From positions 1-43,362 of IMG/VR virus record IMGVR_UViG_3300045253_000096: a stretch of 43,362 bases of DNA; one strand, 5' to 3'. The notes beneath the pieces are model-generated. The model did not search any database and was not told where the DNA came from. It saw only the letters and a list, made by a program, of their open reading frames with translations. Within the stretch, counting starts at the first letter, position 1; every line of letters starts with the position of its first letter. A program made the translations under genes and the position numbers. This DNA is from a virus. Positions 7,334-29,375 of the stretch are shown here, in pieces.

Positions 7334-8085
7334 TGGGTGATCCTGATTCCGTTCGCAGCTTTGGCTACGAGGTTGCCGATCGGCTGAGGTGGGCCTGTCG
7401 AGCAGCGCTGAAGCTCGGCAAGCTGGCGCTTGAGGTCGGCAGCACGGTCTGGATCTCCGTTGTCCTCAGCGTAGGCGATGGCAGAGCGAAGCTGCGTCGA
7501 GTTCATCGTGGCCTTGCTCGCCCTGCCGACGACCGAGGGCTCAGCGAATTTGGCCTGTCGCATCACCTTGCCGTTCACGGCGACGATGCGGTTCGCCCAG
7601 GCTCGGTTCCAGTCGGATTTGCGAGCGGCCTTGCCGGTCTCGGCCAGCCAGTAATTCCGGAACGCCTCAGCCTCGGCTCGGTAAGCTGCAGCGGGCCATT
7701 TCTCAGCGAGAGCTCGGGCTTCCGGCGACAGTTCGGCGATGGTGGGCGGTTCCCAATCGATCGGAATCTTGAATCCGCGTTCGACACGGCCCTTGGGGGC
7801 TGTTGAGGCGTCAGCCTCAACTGGGGGATCGGGGGGGTTAGATATATTCTCATTGGGGGGGGTGGCGTTACCGGCGTTAGTAACACTCGGTAACGCGTTA
7901 CGTGCGTTATCCGGCGTTACCTTGCGTTTCGCTTTGAACTTGCGCTGGCGAGCGGCATTGGCCTCGCGCTTCGCCTGGACGCGCGCATCCTCGCTGGCGA
8001 CGTCCGCCTTCACCGCGGCCACGATCATCTCTGCCGTGGCTCCGGCGGCGAGAAGGGCATCAAGGACCTCTGCCTTGAGGCTCAT
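7330..8085 (-). CDS. Replication protein, DnaT-like domain
   Basis: The protein is 251 aa. Residues about 105-175 carry the pattern FKIPIDWEPP..., a spaced WP, then FRNYWLAETGKAARKSDW and RAWANRI. This matches the DnaT-type single-stranded DNA/primosome domain found in phage replication proteins. An Ala-rich charged N-terminal helix region is joined by a Pro/Asn-rich linker (residues 55-95). The DNA encoding that linker holds clustered 9-bp repeats and an AT-rich tract, like the origin inside lambda O. No phage helicase or polymerase is present, so host replisome recruitment is inferred. The assignment as replication initiator is likely, not proven. Confidence 0.68.
   Translation of the reverse strand: MSLKAEVLDALLAAGATAEMIVAAVKADVASEDARVQAKREANAARQRKFKAKRKVTPDNARNALPSVTNAGNATPPNENISNPPDPPVEADASTAPKGRVERGFKIPIDWEPPTIAELSPEARALAEKWPAAAYRAEAEAFRNYWLAETGKAARKSDWNRAWANRIVAVNGKVMRQAKFAEPSVVGRASKATMNSTQLRSAIAYAEDNGDPDRAADLKRQLAELQRCSTGPPQPIGNLVAKAANGIRITQ
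7803..7921. other. Candidate replication origin (iterons, palindrome, AT-rich tract)
   Basis: GGCGTTACC occurs at 7864-7872 and 7913-7921. Variants sit at 7873 (GGCGTTAG), 7904 (GCGTTATCC), 7895 (GCGTTACG) and, inverted, 7889 (GGTAACGC), forming the palindrome GTAACGCGTTAC at 7890-7901. Next to them is an AT-rich tract (TTAGATATATTCTCATT, 7838-7854) between G-runs, and a perfect palindrome with 7-bp arms, TTGAGGC-GTCA-GCCTCAA, at 7803-7820. All lie inside a replication gene. The 9-bp period is also three codons (NAx repeats), so a protein-repeat origin is the alternative. Confidence 0.5.
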
Positions 8086-8432
8086 AACTCCTCCTCGCCG
8101 CGCTCTTCTAGGAGGCGGAGAATCGTGTCCGAAACAGGCTGGAAAAAGAACCTTTCTCCACTAGTCCTGTGTTCGCGACAGGCATCGTGAAGCGCTTTCT
8201 CCATACGGCGACAGCCGGCACAGAAAGTGACAATTTTAAGGTGGCGATGATTTCCGGTTTGAAGGGCCGCCATACAAAGGCGCGGATCCGATCTTGAGAA
8301 GCCGATCTTGATAAAGGAGGGCTTCGATTCGGTCTGAACTATATATAGGTAGCCCTCGCACGGGCCGTAGCGGGTCCGGAGCCCTTCCCACCCGATCGCA
8401 AGCACTTGCGCAATGAGCTGTTCCTCGGTCAC
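8082..8432 (-). CDS. GIY-YIG (MUG113/T5orf172-like) protein
   Basis: The protein is 116 aa. It shows the compact GIY-YIG pattern: GYLYIVQTES near residue 26, FIKIGFS near residue 39, a basic RLCMAALQTGN segment, MEKALHDACREHR with the helix glutamate, and GERFFFQP in place of the usual GEWF. Proteins of this type are nicking endonucleases or DNA-binding modules; activity here is unproven. The start is GTG 8432, overlapping the upstream stop (GTGA). A second, different member lies at 25817-26338. Confidence 0.72.
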   Translation of the reverse strand: MTEEQLIAQVLAIGWEGLRTRYGPCEGYLYIVQTESKPSFIKIGFSRSDPRLCMAALQTGNHRHLKIVTFCAGCRRMEKALHDACREHRTSGERFFFQPVSDTILRLLEERGEEEL

Positions 8433-24090: not shown

Positions 24091-24184
24091 GACGGCCTTC
24101 GGCAACCTGCTCTCGCCCTACGGGCCGAGCCGCTGCGCGTCTCGTCGCTACGCGCTTCGATCAGGCGTAGGGCGCGCGTTGTGA
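24083..24184 (+). CDS. 33-codon ORF made of a hairpin repeat, bridging two genes
   Basis: ATG 24083 overlaps the end of the MazG-like gene, and the TGA overlaps the GTG of the excisionase-like gene. The ORF (MLRTAFGNLLSPYGPSRC at its start, then Arg-rich) is almost entirely mini-hairpin element D. Its likely role is to keep ribosomes moving across the element so that the next gene is translated. A functional peptide is less likely. Confidence 0.42.
   Translation: MLRTAFGNLLSPYGPSRCASRRYALRSGVGRAL
24095..24170 (+). repeat. Mini-hairpin element D
   Basis: GCC-TTC-GGC, CCC-TAC-GGG, CGC-TGC-GCG and CGC-TAC-GCG stems. The linkers GCTCTCG, CCGAGCC, TCTCGTCG and TCGATC are shared with element E, which has different stems and loops at the same places. 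Confidence 0.75.
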
Positions 24185-24576
24185 CTCAGCGCCTTCTCAC
24201 CGCCTCCCAGGTAACGGAGGAGTTCAACCTTCCGTCCGAGAGCGTTGTGCGAACAATGCGCCTCAGGGGCCTCAAGCACGTTCCCCTTGGCCGCGCCATC
24301 CTCTACGATGAGGCCGACGTCGCCGCCTTCATCGAATCCCAGAAGGTTCAGCTATGCCCCGACCAAATAGCGGCCCCCGCCTCAAGTGGATCCCCAAGCG
24401 GCAGAGCTGGTACATCGTCTGGTACGAGGCCGGGCGGGAAAGGCTCAAGTCTGCCGGCACGACGGACCGCGGACAAGCTGAAGAGGCTCTTGCGGGAGTC
24501 ATTGGAGAGCGGCAGCGCCGAACCCGAGGAGCCGGGCCGCGTGATCCAGGGGAGGTTTCAGTCGCGGAAGTCCTAG
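24181..24576 (+). CDS. Excisionase-like HTH protein overlapping integrase
   Basis: The protein is 131 aa. Residues 1-56 are a MerR/excisionase-type winged helix: LLTASQVTEEFNLPSESVVR, LKHVPLGRAILYDEADVAAF. This module directs excision or, in other settings, DNA-binding control. Residues 59-131 are read from the same DNA as the start of the integrase in another frame (223-base overlap) and are low-complexity (Ser/Gly/Arg-rich), so the functional part is likely the first 60 residues. GTG 24181 overlaps the small ORF stop. Confidence 0.72.
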   Translation: MTQRLLTASQVTEEFNLPSESVVRTMRLRGLKHVPLGRAILYDEADVAAFIESQKVQLCPDQIAAPASSGSPSGRAGTSSGTRPGGKGSSLPARRTADKLKRLLRESLESGSAEPEEPGRVIQGRFQSRKS

Positions 24577-25451
24577 ACCTCTACGGCTCCGAGCACGCCC
24601 CGACGAGAGCCGATCCCGCGCGCATCGGCTACGCGATCGACGCGCTGCTGTCCTTCTGGGACGGCAAGACGGTTGCTGAGATCAGCAAGACGACATGCCG
24701 GAAATACGTCGTTCACCGCCAGCGGGCGCCGGGAACGGTGCGACGCGAGCTCGGAACGCTCACCGCAGCACTCAACTTCGCCGTTCACGAAAAGCTGCTC
24801 GAGCGGGCGCCGCACGTAGAATTACCCGAGAAGCCGGAAGGCAAAGAGCGGTGGCTGACCCGTATCGAGGCCGCCAAGCTGCTCAACGCCTCAAGGACGG
24901 GCCGCAGCGACGTTCGCCTCTACCTGCCGTTGTTCGTCCTGCTCGGGCTCTACACGGGAGCGAGGAAGCAAGCGATCCTGACCCTTCGCTGGCCCCAGGT
25001 CGACCTTGAGCGCGGCCGAATCGACTTCCGCCGGGGGACCAGGCGCACGAACAAGGGGCGGGCGCATATCCCGATCCCGGCCCGGCTGCTCACCTTCCTC
25101 AAGCTCGCTTATCGGCGCCGGATGTCCGATGTCGGGTTCGTGCTTCACGACAAGGGGCGGCCGATCAAGGACATCGGCGGGGGCTGGGACGGAAGGCCGA
25201 GCGCCGACCCGAAACAGCTACGCGGACAGGGCAGCTTCGGCACGGCCTGCAAGAAGGCGGGGTTGATCGATGTCACTCCGCACACCCTAAGGCATACGCG
25301 CGGGACGTGGCTGGCTCAGGCGGGCGTGGATCTGTGGGAGATCGCGGGCTGGCTCGGGCAGTCCTACGCGACGACGGTCGAGCTCTACGCCCATCATCAT
25401 CCGGATCATATGGAAGAAGCGAAGCGAGCGACGGATAGGAGGAATGCGTGA
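24354..25451 (+). CDS. int: Tyrosine recombinase integrase
   Basis: The protein is 365 aa. The N-terminal arm-binding domain is at about 8-52 (KWIPKRQSWYIVWYEAGRER), the core-binding SAM-like domain at 68-155 and the catalytic domain at 165-355. The active-site set is visible: R204 in LYTGARKQ, K234 in TNKGRAHI, H310 and R313 in TPHTLRHTRG, and nucleophile Y345 in TVELYAHHHP. The usual second His of the LGHS motif is replaced by Gln (LGQS). It should integrate the phage at the tRNA-Arg(CCG) gene whose 3' half is at 25731-25781, 280 bases downstream. Confidence 0.95.
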   Translation: MPRPNSGPRLKWIPKRQSWYIVWYEAGRERLKSAGTTDRGQAEEALAGVIGERQRRTRGAGPRDPGEVSVAEVLDLYGSEHAPTRADPARIGYAIDALLSFWDGKTVAEISKTTCRKYVVHRQRAPGTVRRELGTLTAALNFAVHEKLLERAPHVELPEKPEGKERWLTRIEAAKLLNASRTGRSDVRLYLPLFVLLGLYTGARKQAILTLRWPQVDLERGRIDFRRGTRRTNKGRAHIPIPARLLTFLKLAYRRRMSDVGFVLHDKGRPIKDIGGGWDGRPSADPKQLRGQGSFGTACKKAGLIDVTPHTLRHTRGTWLAQAGVDLWEIAGWLGQSYATTVELYAHHHPDHMEEAKRATDRRNA

Positions 25452-25717
25452 GCGAGGGCACTGCCAAACCGACCTTAAGCGACCTAGACGGCGTGACAGG
25501 CATCGGCGCGTCTTACGATCGCGAAGAAGACCAGTGGGACCTCTACACGATGCCCGGCGTCAAGCCGCTTGGGGTGGTCGTTAAGGGATACAATCGCCGC
25601 ATGCTCGACTGGATTGTAGACTCTCTGCGAACTGCCTTGGCGGAAGCGAACGAATCCGGCCCAAACGACCGTAACTCGGACGGAGACTCGGACAGCCGCG
25701 AGGGGGCGATTGGCTAA
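25448..25717 (+). CDS. Small protein between int and attP
   Basis: The protein is 89 aa. GTG 25448 overlaps the integrase stop. The first 65 residues (LDGVTGIGASYDREEDQWDL, LGVVVKGYNRRMLDWIVDSL) look folded; the tail is Asp/Ser-rich. Its stop lies 13 bases before the attachment core, so in a prophage it is the last phage gene at the integrase end. Function unknown; a recombination accessory role is possible. Confidence 0.6.
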   Translation: MSEGTAKPTLSDLDGVTGIGASYDREEDQWDLYTMPGVKPLGVVVKGYNRRMLDWIVDSLRTALAEANESGPNDRNSDGDSDSREGAIG

Positions 25718-25730
25718 GTGATTGAGAAAA

Positions 25731-25781
25731 TGGCGCACCCAAGAGGATTCGAACCTCTGGCCTCTGCCTTCGGAGGGCAGC
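25731..25781 (-). other. attP core: 3' half of tRNA-Arg(CCG)
   Basis: Read on the minus strand from 25780 to 25731, the bases give an anticodon stem-loop (CTGCC-CTCCGAA-GGCAG, anticodon CCG), variable region, T-arm (AGAGG-TTCGAAT-CCTCT), the 3' acceptor strand TGGGTGC, discriminator G and the encoded CCA. The 5' half (D-arm and acceptor 5' strand) is absent: the sequence beyond 25781 does not continue as tRNA. Phages carry such fragments so that integration rebuilds the host tRNA. On integration the intact tRNA end would lie on the int side. Confidence 0.92.
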
Positions 25782-25816
25782 CCGAGACGCTTTCTAAGAG
25801 AGCGAAACGTCTGATT

Positions 25817-26338
25817 TCAGCGGCTTTCGACGCGGAACGCAGCGGGAAAATGCGTAGGAGACTCGAACGGGTCCGAGTTATCGGGCCTAAGGGCGTTGAT
25901 CCGGTCGATTTCGGCCAGCAGTTCCGGTGTCCGCTCGAACCACTCGCCATGCAGCCGGGACGCCCCAAAGTGGACGGTATGGTACATCCATTCGGCCGTT
26001 CGATCGCCGATTCCAACTGCCAGGATGCGCAGCGGAATGGGGCTGCCGCACTGGAGCGCTGCGAGGCGCTTAGCAGGATCTGTCGAAAGCCCGATCTTGA
26101 TGGCTCCGATGTCGCCCCCGATGAAATAAATGCAACTCGGGGCCTCGAAGCGCTTCTTCACGGCAATGCCGGGAAGGTCTTCCGCCATGAAACGGCGATA
26201 CGCCGCTTCGGCCTTCACCGGGTCATTCGTTCCCGTCGATCGCGTCCCCTGCGTTCCGTCGCCGCGAGTCCAGTGGATGTAATAGGCGTCCCGCTTTTTC
26301 AGGAACTTGAGGTAGGGACCTTTGGCTTTGCGCGGCAT
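25817..26338 (-). CDS. Integrase-type N-terminal domain fused to GIY-YIG domain
   Basis: The protein is 173 aa. Residues 1-50 (GPYLKFLKKRDAYYIHWTRG, then TRSTGTNDPVKAEAAYRRFM) resemble the arm-binding domain of this phage's own integrase. Residues 60-140 are a MUG113-type GIY-YIG domain: CIYFIGGDIGAIKIGLSTDP, KRLAALQCGSPIPLRILAVG, AEWMYHTVHF and GEWFERT. It ends 36 bases from attP, facing the integrase. ATG 26338 is chosen; GTG 26389 is in frame. A -35/-10 pair (TTGCGT, 16 bases, TACTGT) ends six bases before the ATG, so the mRNA may be leaderless. Confidence 0.75.
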   Translation of the reverse strand: MPRKAKGPYLKFLKKRDAYYIHWTRGDGTQGTRSTGTNDPVKAEAAYRRFMAEDLPGIAVKKRFEAPSCIYFIGGDIGAIKIGLSTDPAKRLAALQCGSPIPLRILAVGIGDRTAEWMYHTVHFGASRLHGEWFERTPELLAEIDRINALRPDNSDPFESPTHFPAAFRVESR

Positions 26339-28746: not shown

Positions 28747-28880
28747 TGCAAGAATCCCCTCTCCTGTGTTACCGGTGCCGCTATGCGCAGCCTCCGATTA
28801 TCGCGCCCAAGAAGGACACTGTGGCAAGCTTGACGGCTTCCCGCCTCGCCCTCTCTTGACCTCGATAATCGGTGAACATC

Positions 28881-29375
28881 ATGGCCAGTCGCGCCCATCG
28901 CTGGAAAGGCGATGACACTCCCCTTACCGGCGTTCATGGCGGCTCCGCTGCCGCCGCACGCGCCGCCGTCAAAGAGTCCAAGCGCCTCCTCGACGAGCGC
29001 GCTCGGGCCGCTGTGCGCGAGGTTATCGCGCGCAATCAGGCCGCTTACGAGAGCGCTCCACGCAAGGATCGCCTCCGTCCGCGTGCGAGCTCCCGCCCCC
29101 GCTCTCCGCGATCTTGGCTGACCGACCTTATGCTGGCCCAGAACGGCCTGTGTTTCTACTGCGGACGCCGAATGCTCACTGGCCCGCTTCCCGATGAAGC
29201 GCTGTTCCGTCGCGCCACTATCGACCACTACGTTCCGCTGGCGCGTGGCGGCCTGAACGTGCGCGACAACGTCGTCGGCGCCTGTAACGAGTGCAACAAT
29301 CGAAAGGGCGCGCTGATGCCGGATGAGTTCGCCGCGATAGCGATGCCACTCCGCGAAGAACGCGTCAGCGGCTGA
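28881..29375 (+). CDS. HNH endonuclease on the plus strand
   Basis: The protein is 164 aa. It has a basic helical N-terminal half (AARAAVKESKRLLDERARAA). The HNH core is CFYCGRRMLTGPLPDE, RRATIDHYVPLARGG and NVVGACNECNNRKG, with two Cys pairs and the catalytic DHY. It stands opposite to the lysis region, between two minus-strand late genes. GATAAT at 28864-28869 is a possible -10, so it likely has its own promoter and came in as a mobile gene. ATG 28881 is used; GTG 28872 is the alternative. Element I follows its stop. Confidence 0.82.
   Translation: MASRAHRWKGDDTPLTGVHGGSAAAARAAVKESKRLLDERARAAVREVIARNQAAYESAPRKDRLRPRASSRPRSPRSWLTDLMLAQNGLCFYCGRRMLTGPLPDEALFRRATIDHYVPLARGGLNVRDNVVGACNECNNRKGALMPDEFAAIAMPLREERVSG

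Follow-up and report, generated by a model that had tools for sequence, protein, structure and literature searches.

The temperate phage whose complete circular genome makes up the window (the whole 43,362-base stretch of DNA analysed here, a virus record) carries beside its attachment site a gene for a chimeric protein of 173 amino acids (25817..26338, minus strand), in which an integrase-type N-terminal domain is joined to a MUG113 GIY-YIG domain. Both domain homologies, the predicted fold, the place of the gene at attP, the recurrence of such genes by integrases and the match in type between N-terminus and neighbouring integrase are computed results. With moderate confidence, we propose from their combination that the chimera is an att-arm-directed GIY-YIG nuclease, acting against, or homing into, elements that share the phage's attachment specificity.

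The phage genome and its int-attP region

The two ends of the record share 127 identical bases, a terminal overlap from which we conclude that the genome is complete and circular, at ~43.2 kb; head, portal and terminase genes are present. The phage encodes a tyrosine integrase of 365 amino acids (24354..25451, plus strand; Phage_integrase E 3e-17, phrog_1 E 2e-53), the N-terminal domain of which (24354..24512, plus strand) is the counterpart of the chimera N-terminus in the sequence alignment. Directly upstream of int is a gene for an excisionase-like HTH_17 protein (24181..24576, plus strand; HTH_17 and phrog_66 matches), a conventional candidate for the directionality factor. Downstream of int follow a small ORF (25448..25717, plus strand), the attP core and, on the minus strand and thus convergent with int, the chimera gene.

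The attP core (25731..25781, minus strand) is a 51-bp 3' part of tRNA-Arg(CCG) and matches tRNA-Arg(CCG) genes in several Sphingomonadales genomes at 100% identity. The tRNA that ARAGORN predicts here is longer (25731-25803), and its 5' half is probably not tRNA because the host match ends at 25781. The chimera gene ends 35 bases from the core, in agreement with the preliminary description, which had placed the two side by side. The octamer ACTCGGAC has exactly three exact copies in the window, all of them around attP and within 205 bp of each other: two lie on the int side as direct copies 12 bp apart (25674..25681 and 25686..25693, both plus strand), in the 3' end of the small ORF, and one is inverted and lies inside the 3' end of the chimera gene (25871..25878, minus strand). 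An octamer present three times, clustered and nowhere else, was found in 1.45% of 2000 random windows, and the strings RCTCGGAC and CTCGGAC showed no enrichment across the window overall. We take the ACTCGGAC octamers to be candidate arm-type sites, with a motif that is short and only moderately unusual.

Both int-side copies of the octamer are kept in a provirus whose integrase is 87% identical (L005), and over 118 bp the core and adjoining arm from the opposite end of this provirus (L241) share 85% identity with window positions 25731-25848. The chimera gene was absent when the whole of this L005/L241 record was searched. The attP arm on the chimera side (25782..25848), which in the window encodes the C-terminal tail of the protein, is accordingly kept in a relative without the gene, and the last ~10 codons of the chimera gene are attP-arm DNA that the gene-less relative also possesses. 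Conservation of the arm in L241 implies that the chimera gene sits against a pre-existing attP arm, and the window and L005/L241 provide a single case of a presence/absence difference at this spot.

Domain composition of the chimera

The chimera ORF, which opens with an ATG at 26338, stops at 25817-25819 and has coding-like third-position GC, is genuine. Residues 1-53 align with residues 1-52 of the phage's own integrase at 40% identity (21/53; BLASTP E 7e-8), the homology beginning at the first methionine. Local scores of this N-terminus against the integrase family range from 91 to 116, above those of all shuffled versions of the same N-terminus (at most 54), which upholds the resemblance to the arm-binding domain of the phage's own integrase first remarked in the preliminary description. 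An AF2 model of the full chimera (mean pLDDT 83), built with an input alignment of integrase N-termini and GIY-YIG relatives, predicts a beta-beta-beta-alpha unit at the N-terminus (E9-13, E18-24, E30-34, H40-53), and the N-terminus modelled alone adopts the same fold. The nearest solved structure to the N-terminus model is the AP2 DNA-binding domain 6sy0 (Z 6.2); arm-binding domains are among the other neighbours, namely lambda Int residues 14-60 (1z1b; Z 4.6, 47 aligned) and the arm-type binding domain of HAI7 integrase (3ju0; Z 4.3, rmsd 2.4, 50 aligned), at low Z-scores within a range (4-6) where unrelated folds score too. A Foldseek search of the PDB returned no match at E <= 0.001 for either the full-chimera or the N-terminus model. 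The predicted fold does resemble that of arm-binding domains, and it backs such an assignment without proving it, the main evidence being sequence homology to the integrase. On BLASTP, AF2 and structural neighbours together, we read codons 1-53 (26180..26338, minus strand) as a probable arm-binding-type (AP2-like) integrase domain, which may read arm-type sites.

In a tree the chimera N-terminus falls inside the tRNA-Arg integrase family, with a resolution too weak to date the split. Against this N-terminus the integrases L008, L269 and L004 outscore the phage's own, and the genome integrases L270-L273 and L275, all of which adjoin the same tRNA-Arg core as the window, have N-termini 43-57% identical to it in the matched stretch, compared with 40% for the own integrase. 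A recent duplication of the window integrase's N-terminus was considered as the origin of the domain and is unsupported, the chimera N-terminus not being sister to the own integrase in the weakly resolved tree.

Pfam, the subclade alignment and AF2 place a GIY-YIG (MUG113/T5orf172) domain at codons 69-150 (25889..26134, minus strand). Residues 81-144 match Pfam MUG113 (PF13455) at 33.4 bits against a cut-off of 22.3, so the remainder of the protein is of the MUG113 type, as had been described. The conserved active-site residues are present (Y71, K81-I82-G83, R91, E116, H120 and G131-E132-W133-F134), and every residue invariant across the subclade alignment is found in the window chimera. AF2 predicts a GIY-YIG fold at residues 69-149 with high pLDDT; this half of the protein resembles the solved structures of Slx1 (6sei; Z 5.0 over 99 residues) and 1ywl (Z 4.9), and matches viral GIY-YIG models at E down to 4.5e-12. 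PADLOC left the window chimera unmatched; of its homologues, three have weak PDC-S57 matches across the GIY-YIG domain.

Close relatives of the chimera often lie beside integrases

A scan with the GIY-YIG half yielded 116 viral relatives, 80 of which were kept, and a second scan with the subclade alignment added more; the 26 best by subclade profile (score >= 100) form the close subclade. A tyrosine integrase lies within 1.5 kb of 20 of these 26 genes, compared with 14 of 105 lower-scoring GIY-YIG genes, and both counts are lower bounds because the integrase profile is narrow. For L027 and L045 the chimera is at one contig end and the integrase at the opposite end. tRNA T-arm motifs, as att cores, are found between int and the chimera gene or beside the chimera gene in the window (WIN), L025, L029-L032, L035, L036 and L038, and the same placement recurs in L051, L070, L123, L124 and L230. 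Close homologues are therefore not mostly away from att sites; they sit by integrases, many of them beside a tRNA-half att core, and integrase-linked chimeras recur beyond the window more broadly than the preliminary description, which had called for the arrangement to be sought elsewhere, supposed.

An exception is a Sphingobium gene (G009, at G009:C4:10513) beside a tRNA-Val, with no P0002-like integrase within the 60 kb examined; the GIY-YIG gene at G404:C1:40069 likewise has none within the 80 kb examined. Among viral contigs and genome contigs, scans with the full protein for close relatives gave no match. In phage and plasmid records only the GIY-YIG half is matched, and the loci inspected there do not adjoin integrases; a search of 385 Alphaproteobacteria genomes produced one weak further case, with an internal stop. 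Six phages with integrases 60-88% identical, searched as complete records, do not have the chimera, and no subclade member was found at E<=1e-12 in genomes with the same integrase family (G050, G082, G205, G226, G266 and G288).

The N-termini of the subclade differ from one member to another, and Pfam and PHROGs detected nothing in most of them. A comparison with every integrase in the set clearly shows an integrase-type N-terminus in six integrase-linked proteins. These N-termini are of four unrelated types, and in five proteins the type is that of the neighbouring integrase: the window protein (21/52 identical), L025 (23/51), L037 (25/43, of a DRHGKxRxRFRR type), L230 from a Sphingomonadales genome (35/67) and L139 (31/63, another type). 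The sixth, L026, has an N-terminus of the L025/L032/L240 type, unlike that of its own integrase. Permutation of the 36 linked pairs gave p = 2e-5 for five own-matches and p = 5e-5 for the summed score. The N-termini of the other 30 linked proteins are without detectable integrase similarity.

At five loci (L025 3890, L032 3725, L030 3756, L031 3698 and L230 10533) the first possible chimera start overlaps the int stop as ATGA, which suggests that the two genes are translationally coupled while the phage is not integrated. L025 and L032 have the att core within the 3' end of int; in L030 (3740-3860) and L031 (3690-3760) a tRNA-half att core lies inside the 5' end of the chimera's first possible frame, and in L051 (3660-3790) and L070 (3640-3720) it is possibly inside the chimera 5' end, start codons at these loci being first possible starts with later GTG/TTG starts available. 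With the core so placed, integration would part the chimera from int and, where the core falls within the chimera frame, sever the gene from its own 5' end; the full int-chimera unit would hence exist only in the circular form. In the window the convergent orientation of the two genes means that this coupling does not apply.

Comparison with known systems

Among described systems the one closest to the window chimera is Odn (origin-directed nuclease), which phage ICP1 encodes. Odn combines a T5orf172 GIY-YIG domain with the DNA-binding domain found in the replication initiator of a satellite, and it cuts the origin of that satellite (PMC8263062, PMC10448857). Related nucleases of phages carry different RepA_N domains that mirror the RepA_N domains of the satellites (PMC8263062, PMC10448857). 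Odn and the chimera are alike in that a T5orf172/MUG113 GIY-YIG domain is joined to a borrowed DNA-binding domain, whose source is a protein on which mobile elements depend, and in that the variety of the borrowed domains mirrors the variety of the partner proteins. The borrowed domain is RepA_N in Odn and an integrase N-terminus in the chimera, which we accordingly do not class as an Odn; unlike Odn, moreover, the chimera gene lies at its carrier's own attP, its N-terminus fits the carrier's own integrase family, and cleavage is for the chimera a prediction. With freestanding T5orf172/MUG113 homing endonucleases the chimera shares the nuclease family and a patchy presence, whereas it differs from them in being linked to an integrase and an att core and in that no zinc-finger repeats were detected in it. 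Its N-terminus shares a predicted beta-beta-beta-alpha arrangement with the arm-type domain of tyrosine integrases (lambda Int 1z1b, HAI7 3ju0), but is attached to a nuclease domain instead of a recombinase catalytic domain. Like excisionases and other recombination directionality factors, the chimera is a small protein encoded beside int and att; unlike them, it has no winged-helix or HTH domain, is missing from close relatives and is accompanied by a separate excisionase candidate. The targeting of competitors would in our analysis fit the Odn precedent better than a role as directionality factor.

Proposed function and alternative explanations

Phages and islands commonly compete for a single tRNA attachment site. 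In many Sphingomonadales genomes the tRNA-Arg core is present in at least two copies, spaced by a few to 70 kb, which is the pattern that a stack of elements at the site should produce, so that rivals for it are probably common here as well. By the logic of Odn, an integrase arm-binding domain should lead the GIY-YIG domain to att arms. We infer DNA binding, cleavage, target and benefit along these lines: the N-terminal domain, of the same family as the N-terminus of integrases that use tRNA-Arg(CCG), would read arm-type sites, and the GIY-YIG domain would nick or cut DNA near them. The likely target would be the attP (or attL/attR) of phages or islands that share arm and attachment specificity, and the carrier might benefit by keeping the attachment site, by homing, in which the nuclease gene would be copied together with its att/int flank into relatives that have been cut, or by both. 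Several observations weigh against such a nuclease. Because the N-terminus fits the phage's own integrase family, self-cleavage must be avoided; the phage's own attP might conceivably be spared because the N-terminus has diverged from the own integrase or because bound Int shields the site. The 30 of 36 linked N-termini without detectable integrase similarity, the L026 N-terminus of another integrase's type, the structural Z-scores of 4-6 and the shortness of the arm-site motif also count against it.

The match between N-terminus type and neighbouring integrase could also be produced by a modulator of the phage's own recombination, which would bind the own arm sites and compete with or remodel the integrase complex, for example by blocking re-integration after excision, with the nuclease secondary or lost. 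The ATGA overlaps (L025, L030, L031, L032, L230) are also in favour of a modulator, with co-expression only from the circular form where the core separates the genes (L025, L032, L030, L031); in the window, however, where the gene converges on int, coupling to int is inapplicable. A normal excisionase candidate is present, the gene is missing in the six phages with related integrases as are subclade members (E<=1e-12) in genomes of the same integrase family, and a conserved nuclease site would be unnecessary for the role. We consider a modulator less likely than the att-directed nuclease. An obligatory excision or directionality factor is likewise unlikely, to judge from the relatives without the gene and from the excisionase-like gene upstream of int.

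We think it improbable that the protein is simply a freestanding homing endonuclease that came to lie near attP, with a generic AP2-like N-terminus and a target unrelated to arm sites. Phage homing endonucleases often contain AP2 domains and T5orf172/MUG113 is a known homing family (PMC10448857), and the presence/absence difference between the window and L005 points the same way; a generic domain, though, does not predict the neighbour-specific integrase similarity of five N-termini in six, and the neighbours reported for T5orf172 genes are those for terminase, ribonucleotide reductase and capsid (PMC10448857), not integrases. That four unrelated integrase N-termini have independently been fused to the same kind of nuclease argues, together with the 20/26 linkage in one subclade and the conserved active-site residues, against an accessory passenger near attP whose integrase similarity is a functionless relic of partial integrase duplication. 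In favour of a passenger, cargo is usual at the end of a prophage, and for G404:C1:40069 and G009:C4:10513 the tens of kb examined contain no P0002-like integrase. We rate a passenger as quite improbable.

If the chimeras do cut att arms, integrase domains would have been reused as nuclease guides, as Odn reused an initiator domain, and a route to target prediction would lead from the type of the N-terminus to the matching integrase and its arm sites. We put forward more tentatively, as a possibility that extends beyond the window, a family of att-site-directed nucleases that repeatedly captures arm-reading domains of integrases and in which, for several members, integration separates the nuclease from the int transcript, so that it would be made only from the circular genome, while fighting others for the same site. 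Such a separable nuclease family, if real, would be the integration counterpart of Odn. The literature searched contained no dedicated weapon aimed at att DNA, and in open-licence papers on GIY-YIG with attP or integrase the fusion is undescribed.

Further observations at the tRNA-Arg(CCG) site and in the phage genome

The tRNA-Arg(CCG) gene appears to be a hot spot of element integration, with two or more core copies lying tens of kb apart in one genome, for instance at G065:C1:632904 and 664905 and at G071:C6:1596917 and 1630190. Two loci whose integrases are 60-61% identical (L006 6190-6233 and L007 6185-6233) have a core-int orientation opposite to that at window 25731-25781. The same tRNA-Arg(CCG) core as in the window is found at L030 3766-3816 with an unrelated integrase N-terminus, and a GIY-YIG gene is there too.

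The window phage encodes a second MUG113/T5orf172 GIY-YIG protein, of 116 amino acids (8082-8432, minus strand), which is without an integrase-type N-terminus and whose gene sits in the gene run upstream of the terminase. A further ORF (28872-29375, plus strand) shows, on a reading by eye, an HNH-nuclease-like pattern (CxxC ... DHxxPLxxGG ... N ... CxxCN) and may be a third nuclease of the phage.
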